64,000 bases of DNA, taken from NCBI RefSeq assembly GCF_008806955.1, contig NZ_CP031727.1, positions 2,370,001 through 2,434,000 on the forward strand, written 5' to 3'. This document shows positions 1,825 to 18,742 of the stretch, in pieces. The notes under the pieces are model-generated. The model searched no databases and was not told where the DNA came from. It saw only the letters and a program-made list of their open reading frames with translations. Position 1 is the stretch's first letter. Each line of letters starts with the position of its first letter. This DNA is from Cellvibrio sp. KY-YJ-3. GTDB lineage: Bacteria > Pseudomonadota > Gammaproteobacteria > Pseudomonadales > Cellvibrionaceae. Position numbers and translations under genes: made by a program.

Positions 1825-3525
1825 TTGAACAAAAGTGGGGTAGCTGTGGAGCGGTGGAAAAAAATTCATGGGCTTGGGCGCTTGCGCCATGAGTTCCTTG
1901 ATCAAATTTGGCGCCACCTCGCTTGGTTGACTCTCATCCTGATCCCCCTGTCGTTATTTCGTATCAAATTTACTGGCTGGTTACCGCTCTACGGGGTGCA
2001 CCTTGGGCTTGCCACGGCGGTGGTGTTGATTGCGTTTTATCGCCAGCGCTTACCCATTCGCTACAAAGCTCCTCTGTTGATCGGGGTGTTTTGGATGGTA
2101 GGGGTGAGCGGGGTATTCAATTTTGGTTTGGCCTCCGCCGGGCTCTGGTGGTTGATGATGGGCGCGGTGGTGAGTGGTGCGGTCTATTCCCTGCGTCACG
2201 GTATTGTGATGGGCATCGCTGTGTTGTTGGTGCTGCTGTTATTTATGCTTGCGTTTGCGACAGGGCTGTTGGAGCCACGGGCCGACCTCAATCGCTACAA
2301 CGCTCACCCGGCTGCCTGGGTAAATATGGTCGTGGGCACGGCGCTGTGTATTGCGGTGGTGGTGCGCTCAATTGTTCTTTATCACCATTCACTGGTGCGC
2401 GAAACGGAGCATCGTTTTCAGCAATGGGTGGAGGACATGCCCACCGCTATGCTGGTGCTGGATAGCGATGCACAGGTGTCTTTTGCCAATAGTCGCGCGC
2501 GCGACATCTTGGGTTACTCCAGTAGCTTGAACTACTCAGAACGCATAGTGCTGAACCACTTGGGGCATTTTTATCGCGCGGGCACCGATACGCCATATCC
2601 CCTGGACGAACTGCCGCCAATCCGCGCGCTCAAGGGGGAGCCGGCGATGGTTGACGATGTGGATCTGGTGGTTGATGGGCGCCGCACCAGTTTGCAGATA
2701 TGGGGTAAACCTGGTGTGGATTGGCGCGGCAATACCCGTTTTGCCATTACCACGCTGGAGGATATTACCGAGCGCCGCCGTGCGGAAACCATGAAAAGTG
2801 AGTTTGTGGCCACGGTCAGTCACGAATTGCGTACACCGCTTACCTCTATTCGCGGTTCATTGGGGTTGTTGAAATCCAACGCGCTGGGTGAACTGCCGGA
2901 GAAAATGCAGTCGGTAGTGAATATCGCCAGCACCAATACTGACCGTTTACTGCTGTTGATTAATGACATTCTGGATATGCAGAAAATCGCCACAGGGCAT
3001 ATGAGCTTTAGCATAGCGCCCGTCAAAATCATGCCTTTGCTGATGCGTTTAAAGGATGAGTTGAGCGCTTATGCCCATCAGTTTGGCGTTAGCTATTTTA
3101 TTAGTGAAGGCGTGGCAGAACAGGAAGCGGTGTTGGGGGATGAGAACCGGCTCATTCAGGCACTGGGTAATTTAATGTCCAATGCCGCCAAGTTTTCACC
3201 GCCCGGCGCCAGCGTTACCCTGGCGGTGAGGCTGACCGATGATGCGCACCTGTGTATTTCAGTGCGCGATCAGGGGCTGGGTATACCGGAAGATTTCAAA
3301 GCCCATATTTTTGAACCTTTTAGTCAGGCCGATACCTCCAGCAAGCGCAATAAAGGGGGCACCGGCTTGGGCTTGGCCATCACCAAAGACCTGATTGAAC
3401 GGCAGCAGGGCAGTATTCATTTTGTCAGCGAGCCGGGCGAAGGCACCTGCTTTTATGTCACCTTGCCCCGCGCGTTGGGCGGGGTAGCTGAATTGCCTCC
3501 ATCAACTCCCCTGAAAGAAATGTAA
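1825..3525 (+). CDS. Membrane PAS-domain sensor histidine kinase
   Basis: Two-component sensor kinase of about 566 residues. The N-terminal third (residues about 30-190) has roughly six hydrophobic helices with little periplasmic loop. A PAS domain follows (about 200-315, beginning near EDMPTAMLVLDSDAQVSFAN). The kinase core is complete: H-box VSHELRTPL with the phospho-accepting H333, N-box LGNLMSNAAKFS, G1 box DQGLGIP, F box IFEPFSQ and G2 box GGTGLGLAI. No HAMP domain or receiver domain is present and no response regulator lies next to it, so it is an orphan kinase. The start is uncertain: a TTG at 1825 is used here, but a GTG at 1846 is equally possible and neither has a convincing ribosome site. 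Confidence 0.88.
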   Translation: MNKSGVAVERWKKIHGLGRLRHEFLDQIWRHLAWLTLILIPLSLFRIKFTGWLPLYGVHLGLATAVVLIAFYRQRLPIRYKAPLLIGVFWMVGVSGVFNFGLASAGLWWLMMGAVVSGAVYSLRHGIVMGIAVLLVLLLFMLAFATGLLEPRADLNRYNAHPAAWVNMVVGTALCIAVVVRSIVLYHHSLVRETEHRFQQWVEDMPTAMLVLDSDAQVSFANSRARDILGYSSSLNYSERIVLNHLGHFYRAGTDTPYPLDELPPIRALKGEPAMVDDVDLVVDGRRTSLQIWGKPGVDWRGNTRFAITTLEDITERRRAETMKSEFVATVSHELRTPLTSIRGSLGLLKSNALGELPEKMQSVVNIASTNTDRLLLLINDILDMQKIATGHMSFSIAPVKIMPLLMRLKDELSAYAHQFGVSYFISEGVAEQEAVLGDENRLIQALGNLMSNAAKFSPPGASVTLAVRLTDDAHLCISVRDQGLGIPEDFKAHIFEPFSQADTSSKRNKGGTGLGLAITKDLIERQQGSIHFVSEPGEGTCFYVTLPRALGGVAELPPSTPLKEM

Positions 3526-3599
3526 AGCTTGCCGGGCGGGTTGATCCGCGAGTTTCTTTGGCGCGTAGAACCACCTATCTATTACAACAGGTAATGATC

Positions 3600-4874
3600 A
3601 TGGCTGGTTCTTATAACGTGGTTTTAGTCTTCGCCTCCTACTGTGTGGCGGTCATCGCCTCTTACACTGCTATTTATTTTGGTACCCGGGTATTCAGCTT
3701 GAGCGGGGGTTCGCGCCGTTTCTGGTTGGGCATGGGGGCTCTGTGTTTGGGTAGCGGTATTTGGTCTATGCATTTTGTGGGCATGAGCGCTTACACCATG
3801 CCGATGCATATGCACATGACGTTCAGTGCGACTTTAACCCTGCTCTCCTGGATTCCCGCCGTGCTGGCCTCGGCCCTCGCTCTTTATGTTATTACCCTTT
3901 CCAAGGTCTCCCTAAAAACTATCGCCTCCAGTGCCTTGATTATGGGCGCGGGTATTTTTGCTATGCATTATGGCGGCATGTACGCCATGCAAATGCACCC
4001 CGGTATTGAATACAACACCTTGTTGGTGATCCTTTCGGGAGTGATTGCGGTTGTCGCTTCCGGCGCAGCGCTGGTGATTTGCCGCAAGGTGCGCGATGTT
4101 CCCCCGCAGTATGCCCTGCTGACCAAAGTGGTGGCAGCGCTGGTGATGGGTGCGGCAATCTGCGGTATGCACTACACCGGCATGGCGGCGGCGACTTATC
4201 CCGAAGGTGCAACGTCACACCCGGATAATTTGCTGCGCGGCGATTGGATGGGCGTTCCCACGGCGATTGCGGCGAGTATTTTGTTGCTGTTGGCGATTTA
4301 CTCCGCCTACACCGATTTCCGCGCCATGGAGCGCGCCCGCCAGGAGGAGCGCACGCGCAACGAGGCGGCGCGTCAAACCGCCTTTTATGATTCCATCACC
4401 GGTTTGGCTAACCGCTCTTTTTTGGAGGCCAAGGTATTGGAAAAACTCACAGTAACCACTGCTGACACCACACCCGCGCCATTCATGTTGGTCTATTTTG
4501 AGCTGACCGATTATCGCGAGTTGTGGCAGCGTTACGGTGAACCCTATGCCCAGGCACTTACCCAATACGTAGTGGCCGAGTTACAAGCGCAATTGCCCAC
4601 TGCTGAGCTTATCGCCCGTTACAGTGGCAACAGTTACATGGCGATTCTGCCCTCCAACAACCGGCAGATGATCCAGACATTGTTACAACGTGTATCCCGG
4701 CGTTTCAGTGCCACTGTCACCATCAATGGCCAGCCAACTATTTGTAATTGGGGTTTTGGTTACAGTGAGTACCCGGCATCCGGCACCAATAGCCGCAACC
4801 TGATCCGCGCCGCCCAGCGTATCCGCAAATTATCGATGGAGGCGGGTGGTGAGTTGCAGCTGGAGCTGATGTGA
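3600..4874 (+). CDS. MHYT-domain membrane protein with degenerate GGDEF domain
   Basis: Integral membrane sensor of about 424 residues. The N-terminal half has three MHYT repeats (MHFVGM, MHYGGM, MHYTGM), each in a pair of hydrophobic helices; the family is proposed to bind a metal and sense oxygen, CO or NO. The C-terminal half (about 255-420) is GGDEF-like, beginning FYDSITGLANRSFLE, but the catalytic loop reads RYSGNSYMAIL at residues 340-350 instead of GGDEF. No EAL domain follows. It therefore probably cannot make c-di-GMP and may act as a receptor or partner protein. The ATG at 3600 is chosen because an AGGT site lies seven bases before it; the ATG at 3594 is too close. It follows the histidine kinase by 75 bases and may share a pathway with it. 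Confidence 0.85.
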   Translation: MAGSYNVVLVFASYCVAVIASYTAIYFGTRVFSLSGGSRRFWLGMGALCLGSGIWSMHFVGMSAYTMPMHMHMTFSATLTLLSWIPAVLASALALYVITLSKVSLKTIASSALIMGAGIFAMHYGGMYAMQMHPGIEYNTLLVILSGVIAVVASGAALVICRKVRDVPPQYALLTKVVAALVMGAAICGMHYTGMAAATYPEGATSHPDNLLRGDWMGVPTAIAASILLLLAIYSAYTDFRAMERARQEERTRNEAARQTAFYDSITGLANRSFLEAKVLEKLTVTTADTTPAPFMLVYFELTDYRELWQRYGEPYAQALTQYVVAELQAQLPTAELIARYSGNSYMAILPSNNRQMIQTLLQRVSRRFSATVTINGQPTICNWGFGYSEYPASGTNSRNLIRAAQRIRKLSMEAGGELQLELM

Positions 4875-5232: not shown

Positions 5233-8034
5233 ATGCGAATTATGCAATTCGGTCGGCGGATGCTATTGGCGCTAGTCGCGCTCAGCAGCGTCTCCGCCAT
5301 AGCGCAAACCATCAATATCAACCCCGTATCGGCCACTGGCAGCACCAGCCTGCAACCGGCCAGCTATGCCATCGACAACATCGGCACCACGCGCTGGGAA
5401 TCCAATCACGGTGTATCACCCAGCTCGCTCACTCTGGATTTAGGCCAGGTCTACAACCTGTCGCAGGTGGTGATTTTGTGGGAGGCCGCCAATGCCGAGC
5501 GCTATGAAATTCTCGGCTCCAATAACAACTCTACCTGGACGCAACTGGCCCTGCGTACCGGCGGCACTTTCGGCAACCGTACCGACACTGTGCTGCTTGC
5601 GGGCAGTTATCGCTACGTGCGGATGAACGCCATCACCCGCAGCGCTGGCAATAACTGGGGCTACTCGATTTTTGAGATGGATGTATTTGGCGCCGTTCCG
5701 GTCGCTTCATCCAGTTCATCTGCCGCGCCCAGCTCATCCGGCAGTTGCGCGCTCGGCTGCGTGACCACCTTGAATAGCACCACCATGCGCGCGACAGTTA
5801 CCGGCGGCGATGTGGTGGATATCCATTACACCGTCAACGGCGGCGCCCAGCAAAACGTGCGGATGAACCTCGCCAACGGTGTATGGACTTACGACATCGG
5901 CGGCTTGCCGGCGGGCGCTGTAGTGCGCGCCAACTTCACCATTATCAAAAATGGTGCGGGGCAGGATACCGAGTGGAAGAATTACACCCTGGGTGCCGGG
6001 TCTTCCAGCCTACCCAGTTCATCGCGGTCAAGTAGCTCAGTGCCCAGCTCAGTACCGCCCAGTAGCAGTTCTATTGCACCACCCAGTTCCAGTTCGGTAG
6101 CCAGCAGTACACCGCTGGGCAACATAGTGCCGCTGTATAACAACACCACGGCGCTGGAACCGGTGATCAAGTTTGATCGCGGTGACGCACTGGTCACCCG
6201 TATTGCCGACCGCGCGCGCGATCGCCATGCCAAGGAAAACCATTTCCAAGCCTACGATCACTACCTCACCTTTTATTGGGAGCAGCGCACGGCAGCTATT
6301 GAGATTGTGGATTACGTCGCCAAAGGCGGTACCACAGTGCGCATGAACGTAGTCACCCAAGGCCGTTTGGATGACCTGCAAGCGGAGAACCGCTGGTTCT
6401 ACATCGGCATGAATACCCTTGCCGAATACTGTGGCAACGGGGTGATGAATCGCATTAACGACTTTAACTACTGGAAGGAAGCCAGCTGGAATTGCCGCGA
6501 GAATCGCCCCATTCAAATTGGCGACCGCTTGGAATTTGAACTCAGCCAATTCCTCGACAAAAACAGCGTGATTCGCGGCCGCGACAACTATTACGGCACC
6601 ACCTATTTGTACATAGTCGGGCAGGGCATAGTGCCGTGGGATGTGACCGACAAGGTTCCGTTTGTGGGCGGTGTTTATAAGCAGCGCGATTCTATGCCCA
6701 TGCCGGCCAATGCCCGTTTGGGTGGCGATACCAGCTTGCACGTACAAATGACCGCCGAGCCCGACGGCCACTTCCAGCAGATGGCGACCAACCTGAGCGC
6801 GGTGAATGGTCAGGCGTTTGTGCTCGGTCGTCGCGTACATCACACCTCCTTTATTAACGGTGGTCACGACGAGAACCCGGAAAACGGTGTTTTCAGTGAG
6901 ATGGTGGGTAAATCCGGCACCCGTTATGTGAGTGATCGCTGCTCGCACTGCCATGAACGCAATGGCCGCGCACCCGTAGCGGCGGTAGGTGAGGCGCTGG
7001 ATCGCTGGGTATTTAAAGTCGGCAATGCACAGGGCAATCCGCATCCACAAATGGGCCGTGTATTGCAACCGCAAGCCAATGGCGGTGCGACCAGCGAAGG
7101 CACTCCGTCCATCGCTTTCTGGACTGAGTCAGGCGGTTTGCGTTCACCCAACTACCAGTTCACCGGCTTGCGCCCCGAGACTTTCTCCGCCCGTTTGGCG
7201 CCGCAGTTAGTGGGTATCGGCCTGCTGGAGGCAATTCCCGAATCCACTATTCTCGCCCGTGAAGATATTAACGACGCCAATGGCGATGGTATTTCCGGTC
7301 GCGCCCAACGCATTGCCGATCCGGTCACCGGGCAAACCCGGTTGGGTCGCTTTGGTTACAAAGCCGGCACTACCAGCGTGAAGCATCAAGTGGCATCGGC
7401 GTTTAATACTGACATGGGGGTGATGACCAGCGTATTGCCGAACCCCGATTGCGGCAGCAGCCAAACCAACTGTGGCCCGAGCGGTTCGGAACTGGCCAAC
7501 CAACATTTGGATAATTTGGTCAAATACGTTGCCTTGCTCGGGGTTCGCCCACAGCGCGACTACAACAACGCGCAGGTCATTAATGGTCGCACCGTGTTTA
7601 ACAATATCGGCTGCGCTGGCTGCCATGTGGAGAGCATGACCACCAGCCAATACCACCCCTTCGCTGAACTGCGCTCGCAAACCATTCGCCCCTATACCGA
7701 CATGCTGTTGCACGACATGGGCCCCGGCCTTGCGGACAATTTGGGTGAAGGCCAAGCCAGCGGCGCCGAATGGCGTACCGCGCCACTCTGGGGCTTGGGT
7801 GTTTCTGCCTGTGTTACCGGTGGTGTGACTGGTCAACCGGGCGGTGTACCTTTTGGGGTGGATGGCAACGAAGTTTGCGTACCTAAAGCCAGCTACTTGC
7901 ACGACGGCCGCGCCCGCACGATTGAAGAGGCCATCCTCTGGCATGGCGGTGAAGGTCAAAACGCCAAAAACAATTATTCGGCCTTATCCGCCAGCCAAAA
8001 ACAGGATCTGCTGCGCTTCCTGCAATCGCTGTAA
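5233..8034 (+). CDS. Secreted discoidin/CBM32-like protein fused to a di-haem c-type cytochrome oxidoreductase domain
   Basis: A 933-residue exported redox protein. Order of parts: signal peptide ending near residue 25 (ALSSVSAIAQ); F5/8 type C (discoidin, CBM32-like) domain about 26-153; serine linker; a small beta domain with a CALGC pair about 170-250; a second serine/proline linker to about 292; an unassigned beta-rich domain about 295-470; and a COG3488/DUF1111-type di-haem oxidoreductase region to the end. Two covalent haem sites are visible, CSHCH at residues 570-574 and CAGCH at 794-798. The layout suggests an electron-transfer protein tethered to polysaccharide, comparable in concept to the CBM-bearing redox proteins of Cellvibrio and Saccharophagus proposed to feed lytic polysaccharide monooxygenases. 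The partner is unknown. A strong terminator follows at 8063-8088. Confidence 0.85.
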   Translation: MRIMQFGRRMLLALVALSSVSAIAQTININPVSATGSTSLQPASYAIDNIGTTRWESNHGVSPSSLTLDLGQVYNLSQVVILWEAANAERYEILGSNNNSTWTQLALRTGGTFGNRTDTVLLAGSYRYVRMNAITRSAGNNWGYSIFEMDVFGAVPVASSSSSAAPSSSGSCALGCVTTLNSTTMRATVTGGDVVDIHYTVNGGAQQNVRMNLANGVWTYDIGGLPAGAVVRANFTIIKNGAGQDTEWKNYTLGAGSSSLPSSSRSSSSVPSSVPPSSSSIAPPSSSSVASSTPLGNIVPLYNNTTALEPVIKFDRGDALVTRIADRARDRHAKENHFQAYDHYLTFYWEQRTAAIEIVDYVAKGGTTVRMNVVTQGRLDDLQAENRWFYIGMNTLAEYCGNGVMNRINDFNYWKEASWNCRENRPIQIGDRLEFELSQFLDKNSVIRGRDNYYGTTYLYIVGQGIVPWDVTDKVPFVGGVYKQRDSMPMPANARLGGDTSLHVQMTAEPDGHFQQMATNLSAVNGQAFVLGRRVHHTSFINGGHDENPENGVFSEMVGKSGTRYVSDRCSHCHERNGRAPVAAVGEALDRWVFKVGNAQGNPHPQMGRVLQPQANGGATSEGTPSIAFWTESGGLRSPNYQFTGLRPETFSARLAPQLVGIGLLEAIPESTILAREDINDANGDGISGRAQRIADPVTGQTRLGRFGYKAGTTSVKHQVASAFNTDMGVMTSVLPNPDCGSSQTNCGPSGSELANQHLDNLVKYVALLGVRPQRDYNNAQVINGRTVFNNIGCAGCHVESMTTSQYHPFAELRSQTIRPYTDMLLHDMGPGLADNLGEGQASGAEWRTAPLWGLGVSACVTGGVTGQPGGVPFGVDGNEVCVPKASYLHDGRARTIEEAILWHGGEGQNAKNNYSALSASQKQDLLRFLQSL

Positions 8035-8062: not shown

Positions 8063-8088
8063 GCCCCGGCTTGCCGGGGCTTTTTTTT
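8063..8088 (+). terminator. Rho-independent terminator of the di-haem protein gene
   Basis: Perfect 8-bp stem GCCCCGGC / GCCGGGGC with a two-base loop, followed by eight T residues. Its T-run overlaps the last bases of the convergent esterase gene. Confidence 0.92.
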
Positions 8089-9163
8089 AGCAATATTTCT
8101 TACGCTGGGCAAAAAGAAAAAAACTGGTGAATAACAAGAGTAAAGCGCTTATTGAACCGCCGCCGGAAGAGGAGCCTGCTTTCGCAGATGAACTACTGCC
8201 CGCAACACTGGTGGTGCTACTTAAGGCTATGGAGGATTGCGCCGAACTGCTCGTTGCAGAGGATGAACTCATCGCGCTGCTACTGGATTCCACGTCGGGC
8301 AAGGTTGATGTGCGGTCAATTTTTTCGAGCATAATTTGCGCATAGCGTATGCCGAACTCACGCACTGACTCCGTGGAGAAGTGTGCACCATCGCCAGGAA
8401 TATTGGGTAAACCAGCGGCGGATGCGACGAAGCTGTTGCTGAGCAGGTCTGGCAATTTATTAATTTCCGGGTTGTGCCAGTGACAGCAGCCATTGTAGTC
8501 CGCGTAAAGTAATTCCCCCGCGATAAAGGGAACATCACCGATGTTCAAATCCTCGCGCAAGTTGGTCACGATTTCTTTTACTTTGAACTTCCATTGTTGG
8601 TCAGACGTATTGCTTTCGCCTTGATGAAAGATAATGCCTTTTATTACACCGCTGGCTTGTGCTTTTTTTGCCATATCCAAAAGCCATGCATAACCGCCAT
8701 CAAATTGTGCAGGGATATTTGCATTGTTCCGTCCAATAGGTGCACTTTTTTGAAATAGTTCAATAGGCGTACCGGGCACAGAGGCGGGCACTAAACCAAT
8801 AGTGACAGTGCTCGACATTCCGTCCGCCATGGTCTTGCCAAAGTAATCACCTGGGCCCAAGCCAATCCAGGTTGTTAGTGGGTGCTGGCAGCGATTAAGT
8901 GGTGGCGCTGCGGTGTACCAACTCCCATAAGTCCGTCCCAAGTCGCTGCAATTTAAATTTGCCATGACTTTGACGCGATCATTCGTGACCTTGTCTTGTG
9001 GTTCTATGGCAGCTGACCCATCCATATTTGATTGGCCGAACATCAAGTAGATATGAAAATTGGGGTCTGGCTCTGCCTGGGTAAAAAAAGCGATTGATGA
9101 CAATGTCATCAGGGTTAAACCTTTAACAAGGTGTTTTCCAAAACGGTTCAATGTGAGTGGCAT
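8087..9163 (-). CDS. Secreted SGNH carbohydrate acetylesterase (CE6/SASA-like) with GlyGly-CTERM tail
   Basis: A 358-residue esterase probably removing O-acetyl groups from plant polysaccharide such as xylan. A signal peptide (ending near FFTQA, residue 30) precedes the catalytic block I motif MFGQSNMDGS, with nucleophile S45. HQGESN and the C-terminal DGAHFS (Asp-His of the triad) complete the CE6/sialate-acetylesterase pattern. The C-terminus is a serine-rich linker followed by GGGS, a hydrophobic helix and a basic RKK end. This is the GlyGly-CTERM signal cut by rhombosortase on type II-secreted proteins. The start at 9163 is preferred over upstream ATGs because it begins the signal peptide and has a GGA site about 12 bases before it. 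It converges on the di-haem protein gene. Confidence 0.85.
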   Translation of the reverse strand: MPLTLNRFGKHLVKGLTLMTLSSIAFFTQAEPDPNFHIYLMFGQSNMDGSAAIEPQDKVTNDRVKVMANLNCSDLGRTYGSWYTAAPPLNRCQHPLTTWIGLGPGDYFGKTMADGMSSTVTIGLVPASVPGTPIELFQKSAPIGRNNANIPAQFDGGYAWLLDMAKKAQASGVIKGIIFHQGESNTSDQQWKFKVKEIVTNLREDLNIGDVPFIAGELLYADYNGCCHWHNPEINKLPDLLSNSFVASAAGLPNIPGDGAHFSTESVREFGIRYAQIMLEKIDRTSTLPDVESSSSAMSSSSATSSSAQSSIALSSTTSVAGSSSSAKAGSSSGGGSISALLLLFTSFFLFAQRKKYC

Positions 9164-9529
9164 AAAAAATATTCCGGAGCATGCGCAGCTTGCGTTCAGC
9201 CTTTGCGAATTTTCAAAAGACTTGGCAGGCTTGGCTTGTGATTTATTAATCATTATTAATGACACGGGGCTACTGCCACTAAGCAAATGGCAGTGGCGCG
9301 GAGGATAGGGGGTAAGTCGTTCGTGGGCTTGTTGGAATCGCCCAAAGAGTTGCACTTTGTCAAAATTGGTAGTTTTAATTCAAAAACTACAGATCGGGGG
9401 AGTGATAAACGTCCGCCATCCAGCGGTTGCTTACATTTATCCTTTATTAGTGATGATGGCTGTCACTCCTGTTAAGGGCAGTGATGGTGGTAAGTTGTTA
9501 TCTCCCCCTCTAAATCACGGAGAGAGATC
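9164..9529. other. Divergent intergenic region
   Basis: This 366-base gap separates the minus-strand esterase from the plus-strand VOC gene and must hold both promoters. The one clear element is the inverted repeat at 9369-9390, listed separately. No conserved open frame or RNA gene was seen. Confidence 0.5.
9369..9390. promoter_or_regulatory. Palindromic candidate operator
   Basis: Perfect inverted repeat with arms GTAGTTTT and AAAACTAC separated by six bases, in the middle of a divergent intergenic region. The arm and spacer sizes suit a dimeric repressor. No neighbouring regulator gene identifies the binder. Confidence 0.45.
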
Positions 9530-12197: not shown

Positions 12198-12426
12198 GTT
12201 TTCCAGGGCCTGATTTAGATGGGCTTTTGATCTATCCACTACATGTTTTTTTTAGATGTGTATATGCGGAAGCTAATGCAACAGATTAAGTGGTTATTAG
12301 TTGTAACTTGCTGTTGTGCATTTAATAAGTATGATTGATGACTTGTGCGGTCTTAAACAGAAAACGACGTTCGTGTAGCTATATGGTCTACCTTTGTATC
12401 TTTCAAATGAATCAAATGGAATAAAT

Positions 12427-14568
12427 ATGCTAACTGAAAAAAATAGAGAAGAGTTCTTTAAGGTTGCCGATTCACTGAAAAGATTTAAACGGGCAGAAAT
12501 AAAGGATGAGCATGAGCGGTCATTAATAGACAAACTTTATACGGATCTTTTGCCTGAAAATCAGGTATATAAAATGATTCTTTCTGATAATACGTCCTTT
12601 TTGGTGGGTAGAAAAGGGACTGGGAAATCTACAATAATTTTGCGTTTGGAAAGTGAGTATCGAAAAAGGGAGGATTATCTTCCTTGCTATATTGATACAA
12701 AAACAGTTTTTGAAAGCACAAAAAGCGACTACCAGAATTTAGATTATTTAAAAGGTAAAATACCATCAGAAGCTCTTGAAAAGTACCTTGTGGAACGTTC
12801 GTTTATCCAAAGTGTATTGAAGGCAATAGTAAAAGAACTGGAACTAAAAACTGACTCCTATCTTAGTAAGTTTGCCAATGTTATAGGTCTTAGTAGAACA
12901 ACAGCTGTAAAGGATCGTGTTGCTGGTCTTTACATTAAAATTGAAAATAATCAACACCTTAAAGCCATTGAGTTGCCAGTCATCAACGAGTATGTAAACT
13001 CAATATCCGCGTCAACGGAGAAAGAATCTGCAGTAGCAAATAAGCAAGATGGTGCGATTAGTTTTGGTGTGGATGGTGGTGGGCCAAATTTTGATTTAAA
13101 TGGCGCGTTAGGGAATACAAAGACAGATCGATCTAAACAAATTGATGTTTGGGAAAAGAAATTTTCCGGTGCATTGTTAAAAGTTTTTCAAATTAAAGAT
13201 GTCATAGATGAAGTTAAAGAGATTTTATCGGTCCTTCACGTAAAAAAATTAGTCATATTTCTTGATGATTTTTCTGAAGTCGAAGAGGCAACCATAAAGA
13301 ATTTTGTTGATGTTGTTCTTTCACCTCTGAATAATTGGGGCGATGAATTTATCTGTTTTAAAGTTGCGGCGTATCCAAACCGCTTATATTTTGGCGACAT
13401 CGATAAAGGAAAGGTCGATGTGATTGATTTGGATTTTTACAACCTCTACTCAAATTATGACAAAAATACAATGGAGTCTCTTTCTCTTGACTTCACTAAA
13501 AGACTTGTCGGCACGAGAGTCAAATATTTTAGTACGAATGCTATAGATGAATTTTTTGATGTAAATAATACTACCTCTATAGATGATTATATGGAGCTGC
13601 TGTTCAAGGCATCTTTAAATGTTCCTAGAATTATTGGGTACTTACTTTTTTACTGTCATCAAACTCATATTTCAGTTGGAAAAAAAATAACAAAATCAGC
13701 AATAGATTCTGCTGCACAAAAATATTATGAAAAGGTCGTCTATTCTTTTTTTGAGGTAACTAGTCATAGCTTGCTTTCGTTTGACGAGAAAGTTTCCGAA
13801 TTGCAGCAGAGAGAGCTTCTGAATGTCTTTATCAATAAGCTAAAGCAAGTGCGCCGTCAAGTTATCACTGGCGAGTTGTCCGGTGCAGTATATCAATCTG
13901 ATAAAAACAATCCCTTTACTAGCCATTTCTACTTTTCTCCCAATTTAGAAAAGTTTGTTAGAACATTAGAGTTAAATTTTTTTGTTTCAAAATATGCTGA
14001 AATGAGCGATAGGGACGGAAGAAAAATATCCGTTTATTGTCTTAATTATGGGCTGACCTTGCTAGAAAATATGAAGTGGGGGAAGCCCATTGGATCGGAC
14101 TATCGAAAGTATTTTATTGCTAGGCCATTTGACTTCGAATCTATTTTTGAAGAGTTTTTGCGAAACTCCAAACATATCAAATGCATAAATCCTGACTGTG
14201 CTCGCAAGTATCCTTACGAGCAGCTTCAGTTTTTAGAATTTAACAAAATGAAGTGTGTTGATTGTCAGTGTCAGGTTCATGTGCAGGCGATTTCAGATGG
14301 CATTAAAACTGAGCTAGAAAAAATAGATAAGTCAAAGTTGCTACCAAGAATTGAGCTTGGAATTTTGCATGAGTTGAATAGTAGCGATAGTCAATTGTAT
14401 GCAAAGGATTTGGCGGAGGAATTAGATATTTCGTCCTATCTGGTTGCTAAAAGGGCGGAGAAGTTAGATAGAAAGCATGGTCTGATAACTAGGAATAGAA
14501 TGAATGGAGCACTTATTAAATATGCAATTTCAGACAAGGGTAAAAATGAGTACTTTAATGAAAATTAA
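12427..14568 (+). CDS. P-loop ATPase with zinc ribbon and C-terminal winged helix, function unknown (possibly acquired)
   Basis: A 713-residue cytoplasmic protein of no firmly recognised function. Walker A is GRKGTGKS (residues 61-68) and Walker B is LVIFLDDF (about 275-282), resembling Sll1717-type or STAND-like P-loop ATPases. A helical region of about 250 residues follows. A zinc-ribbon-like cluster comes next: C586-x4-C591 and C610-x2-C613 with C615. The last 80 residues look like a winged helix (YAKDLAEELDISSYLVAKRA). The DNA is visibly AT-rich compared with its neighbours and lies just after a tRNA gene, both suggesting horizontal acquisition. The ATG at 12427 is preferred to an upstream TTG at 12394. 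Large sensor-like ATPases on single-gene islands are often defence proteins, but nothing here proves that. Confidence 0.75.
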   Translation: MLTEKNREEFFKVADSLKRFKRAEIKDEHERSLIDKLYTDLLPENQVYKMILSDNTSFLVGRKGTGKSTIILRLESEYRKREDYLPCYIDTKTVFESTKSDYQNLDYLKGKIPSEALEKYLVERSFIQSVLKAIVKELELKTDSYLSKFANVIGLSRTTAVKDRVAGLYIKIENNQHLKAIELPVINEYVNSISASTEKESAVANKQDGAISFGVDGGGPNFDLNGALGNTKTDRSKQIDVWEKKFSGALLKVFQIKDVIDEVKEILSVLHVKKLVIFLDDFSEVEEATIKNFVDVVLSPLNNWGDEFICFKVAAYPNRLYFGDIDKGKVDVIDLDFYNLYSNYDKNTMESLSLDFTKRLVGTRVKYFSTNAIDEFFDVNNTTSIDDYMELLFKASLNVPRIIGYLLFYCHQTHISVGKKITKSAIDSAAQKYYEKVVYSFFEVTSHSLLSFDEKVSELQQRELLNVFINKLKQVRRQVITGELSGAVYQSDKNNPFTSHFYFSPNLEKFVRTLELNFFVSKYAEMSDRDGRKISVYCLNYGLTLLENMKWGKPIGSDYRKYFIARPFDFESIFEEFLRNSKHIKCINPDCARKYPYEQLQFLEFNKMKCVDCQCQVHVQAISDGIKTELEKIDKSKLLPRIELGILHELNSSDSQLYAKDLAEELDISSYLVAKRAEKLDRKHGLITRNRMNGALIKYAISDKGKNEYFNEN

Positions 14569-16501: not shown

Positions 16502-18742
16502 TTACAGTCCCCATAGGTCATTCAACAGCTCGGTTTTACGTGGGTCGAAACCAGTCCATTGCCCCCAACTGGTGTTGGCGGAGACAGGATCCCAAGGGGT
16601 TAAGTACCAGCCCATGGTATCTGCTGACTCGGGGTTGATCGACCAGTAGCAGGCATTGATACCCTTTTTCTTGAAGTAGTTAGCCGCTGTTTGTTGCCAT
16701 TGTTGATCCACATTGGTGGTGATGTGGCTCCACAGGGCACGGTCTGCCGGGCTGGCTTTTGCAGCTGGCCAATCCATGTTGCCGCCGAACTCACCAATCA
16801 AAATGCCGTAACCCAACTCACGCAGGTAACCAAAGTGCTCTTCCCAGCCTTGTTCCAACAGCTCGGGGTTGATCACGATACGGCAGTCGGCGTGGCCCGC
16901 TTCATCACCTTCCAAACCTTCACACTCGGTTTGGGTTGGGTCCATGAATTGTTTTTGTACAAACACGGAAGGCCCGTAGGTGTGAGGTGAGAACAAGAGG
17001 CGATCTTTAGGAATATTCAGCGGGTTGGTACCAGCTTCGTAGAGGTTTTCACCCCAGTTAGGGTTCAAATCAAGGCTGCCGTGCGGAACAGGAACTTTGG
17101 TATCCGGTGTTCCGTCCTGGGTGTTGGCGTTAGCGGAGAGGCCTTCAACAATAATGATCATGTTGGGGTTCACTTCGTTAATCGCCTCATAGGCATCCTC
17201 AACCAGACCTTTCCACTCGGCCCAAGTGTAATCATAGGGCTCGTTGAATACATCGATACCGATGATGTTATCTACACCCAACTGCTCGGACAGACCTGCA
17301 ATCTCTCTCAGGTTAGCCAGCCATTTTTCCTTGTCATAAGCATGGATTTTGGTGACTGAACTTGGGTTGCCGGTGGCAGAGCATGAATACTCTTCGCGGG
17401 TAAAGTCATAACCTACGCGGGTGGCATCCACATAGGGTGGACGGGCATCCAAACGGCCTGCGCGCCAGCCAACATAGTTAGAGCAGGAGTGGATATCAAC
17501 GAACAATTGGATGTCATTCTGGTCAGCCAGTTTGATGAAATCCTCCAATGCCTGACGTGCGGTAGTTTGACGTACCGACTGATGGTTTTTCAGGTTGGGG
17601 TCCATGCCTTGGGGGTTGTTTGCTTCCAATGTCTGGGGCGCAATAGGCAGGCGCAGCATGGTAATACCTTGCTGTTTCAGCTCGGTCATAGTCTGCTGGA
17701 TGGTACGACCTGAACCCTGGCTGTTGTTGACCCACCACATATTGCCCACATACAACTCCATTGGTGCACCGCTGGGGTTGTTGGCGTCATTCGATGGCTC
17801 ATGGCGACCTTCAAGGCCGAACCAGTTACCGCAACGCGCTGGCACTAATTCACCGTCTTTTGTCAGGTTCCCTTGGGTATTGATGCGGAACACACCGCTA
17901 CCCGGAGGTGTTACTGATGACGATGAGCTGGATGACATAGAGCTCAGGCTTGAGCTGCTAATAACCGAGCTGGAGCTGACAACAGAACTGGATGAGCTGC
18001 TCGGCACTGATGAACTGCTTGGTGCTAATGAGCTGCTAGGTACAGATGAACTGCTGGGAGCAATGCTGGATGAACTGGACGAACCGGGATTGACCGGGCC
18101 CCATGGGTCTGGCTGGGCATCGCAGGTTGAGAAAGATATACAGCTTCTGTTGTTCTCATAACCCCAACCCGAGGCAGTGCTGGTACACATGGGGTAAAGG
18201 GTGCCGTACCAGTTACATTGCGCCCCATTGGCAATGGATGACGAACTGACAACGCTGGAGCTGCTGGAAACGGGGGGTACGCTGCTGGATGAAGGCGCCG
18301 AGCTAGCAACGCTGGATGAACTGGAAGAAGGCGTGCCACCAGTACAAGCAGCGCCATTTACAGTGGGGCGCTCAACCGCACCGCCATTGGTAACACCCTG
18401 GAAACCAAACTCGACGGTTTGGCCCGGCGGTATAGTGCCGTTCCAACCTAGGTTGGTCGCCGCATAGGGATTGCTACCCGACAGGTTGGCATTCCATAAA
18501 TTCGTCACGCGGTTAGTGTTGTATTGCCAGCTAACATTCCAGCCATTGATGGCGGTCGAACTGGTGTTCGAAATACGGATCGCCGCAGTAAAACCCGAAC
18601 CCCAGCTGTTGGTCACAACATATTCACAGCCAGCAGCGGCGGCATTCGAAAATGCGGCCAGCGCAATGCTGACGCCGAGAAGGCTTACCGCTCGTTTCAC
18701 CGGAGCAGGCATGCGAGTGGAAGGAGATACTCTATGTCCCAT
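16502..18742 (-). CDS. Secreted GH5 endo-beta-glucanase with CBM2 and CBM10
   Basis: A 746-residue modular cellulase. Signal peptide to about residue 37 (ALAAFSNAAAAG); CBM2 about 38-137 (CEYVVTNSWGSGFTAAIRI; WNANLSGSNPYAATNLGWNG); serine linker; CBM10 about 173-217 (CNWYGTLYPMC; GWGYENNRSCI); very long serine linker to about 275; GH5 domain to the end. The acid/base is E501 in DVFNEPYD and the nucleophile is E651 in LIGEFGGN. It hydrolyses beta-1,4-glucan outside the cell, with both binding modules targeting crystalline cellulose. A GAGGA site seven bases before the ATG supports this start rather than the internal ATG at residue 11. The gene sits alone, convergent with the ECF41 pair. Confidence 0.94.
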   Translation of the reverse strand: MGHRVSPSTRMPAPVKRAVSLLGVSIALAAFSNAAAAGCEYVVTNSWGSGFTAAIRISNTSSTAINGWNVSWQYNTNRVTNLWNANLSGSNPYAATNLGWNGTIPPGQTVEFGFQGVTNGGAVERPTVNGAACTGGTPSSSSSSVASSAPSSSSVPPVSSSSSVVSSSSIANGAQCNWYGTLYPMCTSTASGWGYENNRSCISFSTCDAQPDPWGPVNPGSSSSSSIAPSSSSVPSSSLAPSSSSVPSSSSSSVVSSSSVISSSSLSSMSSSSSSSVTPPGSGVFRINTQGNLTKDGELVPARCGNWFGLEGRHEPSNDANNPSGAPMELYVGNMWWVNNSQGSGRTIQQTMTELKQQGITMLRLPIAPQTLEANNPQGMDPNLKNHQSVRQTTARQALEDFIKLADQNDIQLFVDIHSCSNYVGWRAGRLDARPPYVDATRVGYDFTREEYSCSATGNPSSVTKIHAYDKEKWLANLREIAGLSEQLGVDNIIGIDVFNEPYDYTWAEWKGLVEDAYEAINEVNPNMIIIVEGLSANANTQDGTPDTKVPVPHGSLDLNPNWGENLYEAGTNPLNIPKDRLLFSPHTYGPSVFVQKQFMDPTQTECEGLEGDEAGHADCRIVINPELLEQGWEEHFGYLRELGYGILIGEFGGNMDWPAAKASPADRALWSHITTNVDQQWQQTAANYFKKKGINACYWSINPESADTMGWYLTPWDPVSANTSWGQWTGFDPRKTELLNDLWGL

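Follow-up and report, generated by a model that had tools for sequence, protein, structure and literature searches.

The locus analysed here raises the question of what a haem enzyme does when it is exported on the same chain as modules for binding polysaccharides. The 933-aa protein is encoded by a single open reading frame in the window, that is, in the whole 64,000-nt stretch of Cellvibrio sp. KY-YJ-3 DNA that was analysed (contig NZ_CP031727.1, positions 2,370,001 to 2,434,000). The translation bears out the original prediction of an exported chain with a CBM32-like module, as it begins with a signal-like sequence and matches PF00754 (F5/8 type C) with 61.5 bits versus a cut-off of 28.2, and the two haem-c motifs named there are both present. 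The solved structures nearest to the CBM32 module were modules of Paenibacillus glucanase/chitosanase (phmmer E 9e-13). The two linkers described originally were retained only in their serine-rich parts, while the stretch between them is not a plain linker, as it holds a CBM56 module that had been overlooked (80.5 bits versus a cut-off of 27). We consider the domain anatomy of the protein to be secure (Table 1).

Table 1. Features of the di-haem oxidoreductase gene and its product, in window coordinates
Feature	Residues	Window position	Strand	Basis
Whole gene, exported multi-domain di-haem oxidoreductase	933 aa	5233..8034	+	Open frame; Pfam domains
N-terminal signal-peptide-like sequence, RRMLLALVALSSVSAIAQ	about 1-25	5233..5307	+	Sequence reading
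CBM32 / F5-8 type C module	about 34-153	5332..5691	+	Pfam PF00754, E 1.1e-16
CBM56 module, beta-1,3-glucan type	176-246	5758..5970	+	Pfam PF22184, E 1.1e-22
Serine-rich linker	about 253-294	5989..6114	+	Sequence
Unclassified middle domain, predicted Ig-like beta-sandwich, signature RxxxRHAxE	about 295-488	6115..6696	+	Pfam-blank; model; alignment
Complete DHOR domain	489-933	6697..8031	+	Pfam PF06537, E 9e-61; hhalign
H537, H545, E547		6841..6873	+	Alignment of 76 middle-domain members and 6 plain DHORs
Haem-c motif 1, CSHCH, at the bCCP/MauG peroxidatic haem position	570-574	6940..6954	+	Translation; alignment
Predicted distal pocket	Q719 and D727	7387..7413	+	Alignment to bCCP/MauG catalytic Gln and Glu
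Haem-c motif 2, CAGCH, at the electron-transfer haem position	794-798	7612..7626	+	Translation; alignment
Predicted sixth ligand of haem 2	H904	7942..7944	+	Alignment to bCCP Met / MauG Tyr ligand

The surroundings of the gene were also inspected. The region just upstream (1825-4874, plus strand) encodes, on the strand of the DHOR gene, a MASE11-PAS histidine kinase as well as an MHYT-GGDEF diguanylate cyclase. The convergent neighbour (8087-9355, minus strand) is a SASA-type carbohydrate esterase that has a serine-rich linker and ends in a hydrophobic tail. Elsewhere in the window, an island of low G+C content (0.36 versus about 0.50; 12394-14568, plus strand), possibly a recent acquisition, encodes a 724-aa P-loop-ATPase-like protein, and a secreted endoglucanase of the CBM2-CBM10-GH5 type with serine-rich linkers was recognized by eye at 16502-18742 (minus strand).

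The haem part of the protein was matched by PF06537 (DHOR) with 206 bits versus a curated cut-off of 22. Pfam by itself covers this domain only from residue 653 on (profile position 214). Profile-profile alignment using hhalign to 13 plain DHORs from other gammaproteobacteria showed that the domain is complete, starting at about residue 489 and including both haems (36% identity over 413 columns, with the plain DHORs covered from residue 23 to their end). The plain DHOR (DUF1111, PF06537) proteins thus resemble the Cellvibrio protein in the complete domain, the same haem motifs and His904, but they are shorter (about 450-565 aa) and have no middle domain, no CBMs and no counterparts of H537, H545 and E547.

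The existence of an unrecognized domain between the linker and the haem part had been claimed originally, together with a proposal to predict its structure. Such a domain is indeed present, blank in Pfam and extending from residue 295 to about 488; residues 295-504 scanned alone gave no Pfam matches, and a profile of the middle domain found nothing among PDB sequences even at an E value of 10. After an earlier shallow model (pLDDT 63.5) had been set aside, an AlphaFold2 model of residues 295-933 with an input of 82 sequences reached a mean pLDDT of 94 and a pTM of 0.94, and in this model the middle domain is all-beta with pLDDT mostly above 90. The structure prediction thus gave a confident beta-sandwich with no significant match in the PDB: a Foldseek search with the core model found no PDB chain at E 1e-3 or better, and the top matches of the middle domain were scattered immunoglobulin-like folds with low, non-significant scores. 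From the model we infer that the middle domain is probably an Ig-like sandwich. It is conserved across 76 aligned members. The idea that it could be a divergent N-terminus of DHOR was rejected, because hhalign found no counterpart of it in the 13 plain DHORs and because the complete DHOR domain comes after it.

The combination of these domains had been regarded as uncommon, which is contradicted by its distribution. The core, consisting of the middle domain and DHOR, was found in 18 of 21 Cellvibrio genomes, frequently with multiple copies per genome, and a scan of named genomes revealed at least 275 loci encoding it, from gammaproteobacteria to Planctomycetes. The middle domain was present in all eight searched genomes of a second Cellvibrionaceae genus, in one of them at marginal significance only, in 3 of 369 genomes of the class in a single-sequence search that counted the present genome, and in 10 of 398 genomes of the phylum in a profile search. 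The detailed set consisted of the best 80 of the at least 275 named loci, so that its domain shares are biased toward close relatives; it includes Rheinheimera, Gilvimarinus, Microbulbifer, Reinekea, Colwellia, Pseudoalteromonas, Halioglobus, Planctomycetes and Myxococcales. Haem motif 1 lies about 270 residues after the middle domain in all of these best 80 loci, and haem motif 2 then follows in 77 of the 77 that are free of contig-end truncation. A chance or artefact origin of the architecture was rejected, as the haem and pocket residues are invariant in 76 members and 6 plain DHORs. The protein is a real, conserved and under-described variant of DHOR, and not a new category. Two further observations concern the relatives themselves. 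In 21 of the best 80 loci (e.g., L099, about 196-316 aa) a PF03640 "secreted repeat" directly precedes the middle domain, replacing the CBMs or standing beside them. Very divergent relatives of the core in a Gilvimarinus-type genus (L207 and L208) have different N-terminal modules and a shortened DHOR, and they retain H537, H545, E547 and His904.

The features of the haem sites were then compared with those of characterized di-haem enzymes. Pfam gave no PF03150 (CCP_MauG) match in the 933-aa protein. A remote profile alignment, run in forced global mode against di-haem peroxidases of related genomes, had an hhalign probability of 99.2% and matched haem 1 to the peroxidatic and haem 2 to the electron-transfer haem, which suggests that the DHOR part is a remote relative of bCCP/MauG. 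Both kinds of protein carry a pair of haem-c domains in matching order and a YxHDG...EA motif, and the remote alignment also pairs a distal glutamine and an acidic residue. Gln719, which is present in 76 of 76 members, was aligned with the catalytic Gln of bCCP/MauG, and position 727, which is Asp in 73 and Glu in 3 of the 76, was remotely aligned with the catalytic Glu, with a spacing between the two residues of 8 here versus 10 in bCCP. Mutation of these distal Gln/Glu residues inactivates bCCP (PMC10094543). His904 is likewise present in all 76 middle-domain members, is kept in plain DHORs as well, and aligns where bCCP has the Met and MauG-type enzymes have the Tyr ligand of haem 2 (PMC6405878). 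Hence, the Cellvibrio protein differs from bCCP/MauG in having His at this ligand position and Asp in place of Glu. In BthA, replacement of the Tyr by His led to the loss of the bis-Fe(IV) signal, while H2O2 reduction was retained (PMC6405878). A role in MauG-type protein modification is disfavoured by His904, and the predicted arrangement is a bis-His electron-transfer haem together with a peroxide-reactive haem that would work without MauG-type chemistry. Residues H537, H545 and E547 were found in 76 of 76 middle-domain members and in none of the 6 plain DHORs compared.

To which polysaccharide the enzyme is directed was considered from the modules and genes that accompany the core. Among the best 80 named loci, GH16 is fused to the core in 17, with the catalytic motif ExDxxE intact in every one of them, and GH81 is fused to it in one, from Thalassomonas. 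CBM56 occurs in 38 of these loci, CBM32 in 33 and a CBM6-type module in 19; because 16 of the 80 relatives contain none of the searched modules, the core may function more broadly. GH16 is also the most frequent Pfam family among adjacent genes (10 of 86), and phmmer detected it in 14 of 147 adjacent ORFs versus 1 of 191 ORFs lying farther away at the same loci (Fisher p 5.6e-5, a value uncorrected for relatedness and with related strains counted separately). In the present genome CBM56 is found only on one GH81-CBM56-CBM6 protein and on two DHOR proteins, and in a second Cellvibrio genome it is likewise restricted to a GH81 protein and DHOR proteins. In Cellvibrio the gene belongs to no evident operon with glucanases. 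Activity of GH81 towards both curdlan and pachyman is raised by other CBM56 modules (PMC9609564), and in a beta-1,3-glucanase from Paenibacillus the F5/8C module binds to laminarin as well as to chitin (PMC2789033). Overall, the sequence data make a link of the core to beta-1,3-glycans appear well supported.

Several observations were made on other CBM56 proteins. The second DHOR protein of this genome (L199 8332-17238, at about 1.255-1.264 Mb) carries two CBM56 modules and a middle domain that is 74-76% identical, and its gene lies upstream of a TonB-dependent receptor gene and a tryptophan-halogenase-like gene. At two Cellvibrio loci (L158 and L159) a thaumatin-like domain is fused to CBM56, which is possibly another beta-1,3-glucan-active protein. 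The C. japonicus copy was considered as the necromass-induced cbp26A, on the assumption that an old CBM26 label meant CBM56, and this identification was rejected, since genuine CBM26 proteins are encoded elsewhere in C. japonicus.

A protein of related design has been described in Gilvimarinus xylanilyticus HB14, where the secreted 1,3-xylanase Xyn65 is reported to have the arrangement GH26-CBM31-CBM6-Big-DHOR; the authors put forward the idea that it might act as an oxidoreductase on 1,3-xylan (PMC9638140). Xyn65 is similar in being secreted and in joining beta-1,3-glycan CBMs, an Ig-like domain and DHOR in a single chain, while the Cellvibrio protein differs, by comparison with the published domain description, in having no hydrolase domain and in carrying CBM32 and CBM56. 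Because Xyn65 has already been reported, the present protein is not a first sighting, and the link to beta-1,3-glycans is firmer. What is added here beyond Xyn65 is the family, the middle domain and the active-site prediction. DHORs are otherwise known, in the open-access literature, from imelysin iron-uptake operons (PMC3143127).

The explanation that best fits these data, and to which as a whole we would give about an even chance, is that the protein could be a glycan-anchored, peroxide-using di-haem enzyme that works beside beta-1,3-glucanases. The exported enzyme would anchor through CBM56 and CBM32 to beta-1,3-linked glycans, most likely beta-1,3-glucan in the walls of fungi or algae, and the anchored chain would present the DHOR domain, a member of the di-haem peroxidase superfamily, at the glycan. 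Haem 1, with His574 as the proximal residue and Gln719 and Asp727 on the distal side, would activate H2O2, and haem 2, with His798 and His904 as predicted ligands, would pass electrons to or from haem 1. The middle beta-sandwich would pack before DHOR and probably shapes a site for the substrate or a partner. Most likely H2O2 would be used to oxidize a wall component or an extracellular reductant, or it would be removed at the glucan surface, and the enzyme would act next to the GH16 or GH81 glucanases with which it is fused in relatives. Domain composition, homology, residue conservation and the fusion or adjacency to glucanases are observed; glycan binding by this protein, its haem ligation and the molecule it oxidizes are inferred, and peroxide use is a reasoned prediction.

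The alternative that survives best is a protective peroxidase, which would only remove H2O2 near the polysaccharide and so protect both the cell and its secreted hydrolases against oxidative bursts of fungi, plants or algae. The bCCP-like pocket and the absence of a CCP_MauG-type peroxidase from this genome are consistent with it, as is the induction of a plain DHOR gene of Leptospira by H2O2 and iron limitation (PMC13066512). However, such an enzyme would require a steady extracellular electron donor, none of which is known, and this role leaves the extra conserved domain and the specific tie to beta-1,3-glucanases unexplained, which makes it rather unlikely.

Another alternative is that haem 1 together with H2O2 or O2 directly breaks or modifies beta-1,3 chains, which would make the protein a new haem-based auxiliary-activity enzyme. 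The authors of Xyn65 raised such a possibility for 1,3-xylan (PMC9638140). The fusion of the core to endo-acting GH16 or GH81 and to CBMs that target insoluble beta-1,3-glucan points in this direction, as do the family-specific and invariant H537, H545 and E547, which precede haem 1. On the other hand, His904 would by analogy speak against high-valent chemistry of the MauG type, and cleavage would be unprecedented, since we know of no di-haem peroxidase of this superfamily that cleaves glycans. Direct cleavage by this protein is therefore unlikely. It is quite doubtful that the beta-sandwich/di-haem core as such is a haem-based auxiliary-activity family using H2O2 (or O2) to cleave or modify beta-1,3-glycans together with GH16, GH81 and GH26, independently of copper LPMOs.

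A third role, that of a carbohydrate-tethered cytochrome that donates electrons to an LPMO by reducing the AA10 copper, has been proposed for Cbp2D/Cbp2E of C. japonicus and was advanced for the present protein in the original prediction, whose view of a polysaccharide-targeted di-haem oxidoreductase stands, while the part on LPMOs is weakened. Tethering of redox proteins is an accepted idea, an LPMO gene is present in the same genome, encoding one LPMO_10 protein, and Lpmo10B can be reduced by a c-type cytochrome domain taken on its own from Cbp2D (PMC8981238, cited in PMC12542752). Cbp2D and Cbp2E are also extracellular carbohydrate-bound redox proteins of the same genus, but they are built from CBM2, X158 (YceI-like) and mono-haem X183/X132 modules and are directed to cellulose, and DHOR is undescribed there (PMC12542752, PMC8981238). 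The sole LPMO_10 of the present genome carries CBM5/12, a module type different from CBM56, the 25 most frequent families in the 86 adjacent genes include no LPMO, and the invariant haem-1 pocket of peroxide-using enzymes would be needless for a pure electron carrier. The fused and neighbouring partners of the core are GH16 or GH81 and not LPMOs. Moreover, of 11 non-Cellvibrio genomes that contain the core, 6 lack LPMO_10, and electron donation to LPMOs is therefore unsupported as a general function; it is very improbable as the explanation, although the protein might still act as a redox partner in the present species alone. Finally, a degenerate haem domain kept for binding or structure with no redox function, an option named by the Xyn65 authors (PMC9638140), is extremely improbable, given that both CXXCH motifs, Gln719, Asp/Glu727 and His904 are (nearly) invariant in 76 members.

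With the family, the residues for mutation and a single-chain construct now named, direct testing of the proposed glycan-anchored, peroxide-using enzyme becomes possible. Oxidative attack on insoluble polysaccharides has so far been credited mainly to copper LPMOs. A widespread di-haem/beta-1,3-glycan family, if true, would represent a second, haem-based oxidative route, or a bacterial means of handling H2O2 where fungal or algal walls are digested, and the core may act as a so far unstudied oxidative aid to the digestion of such walls.
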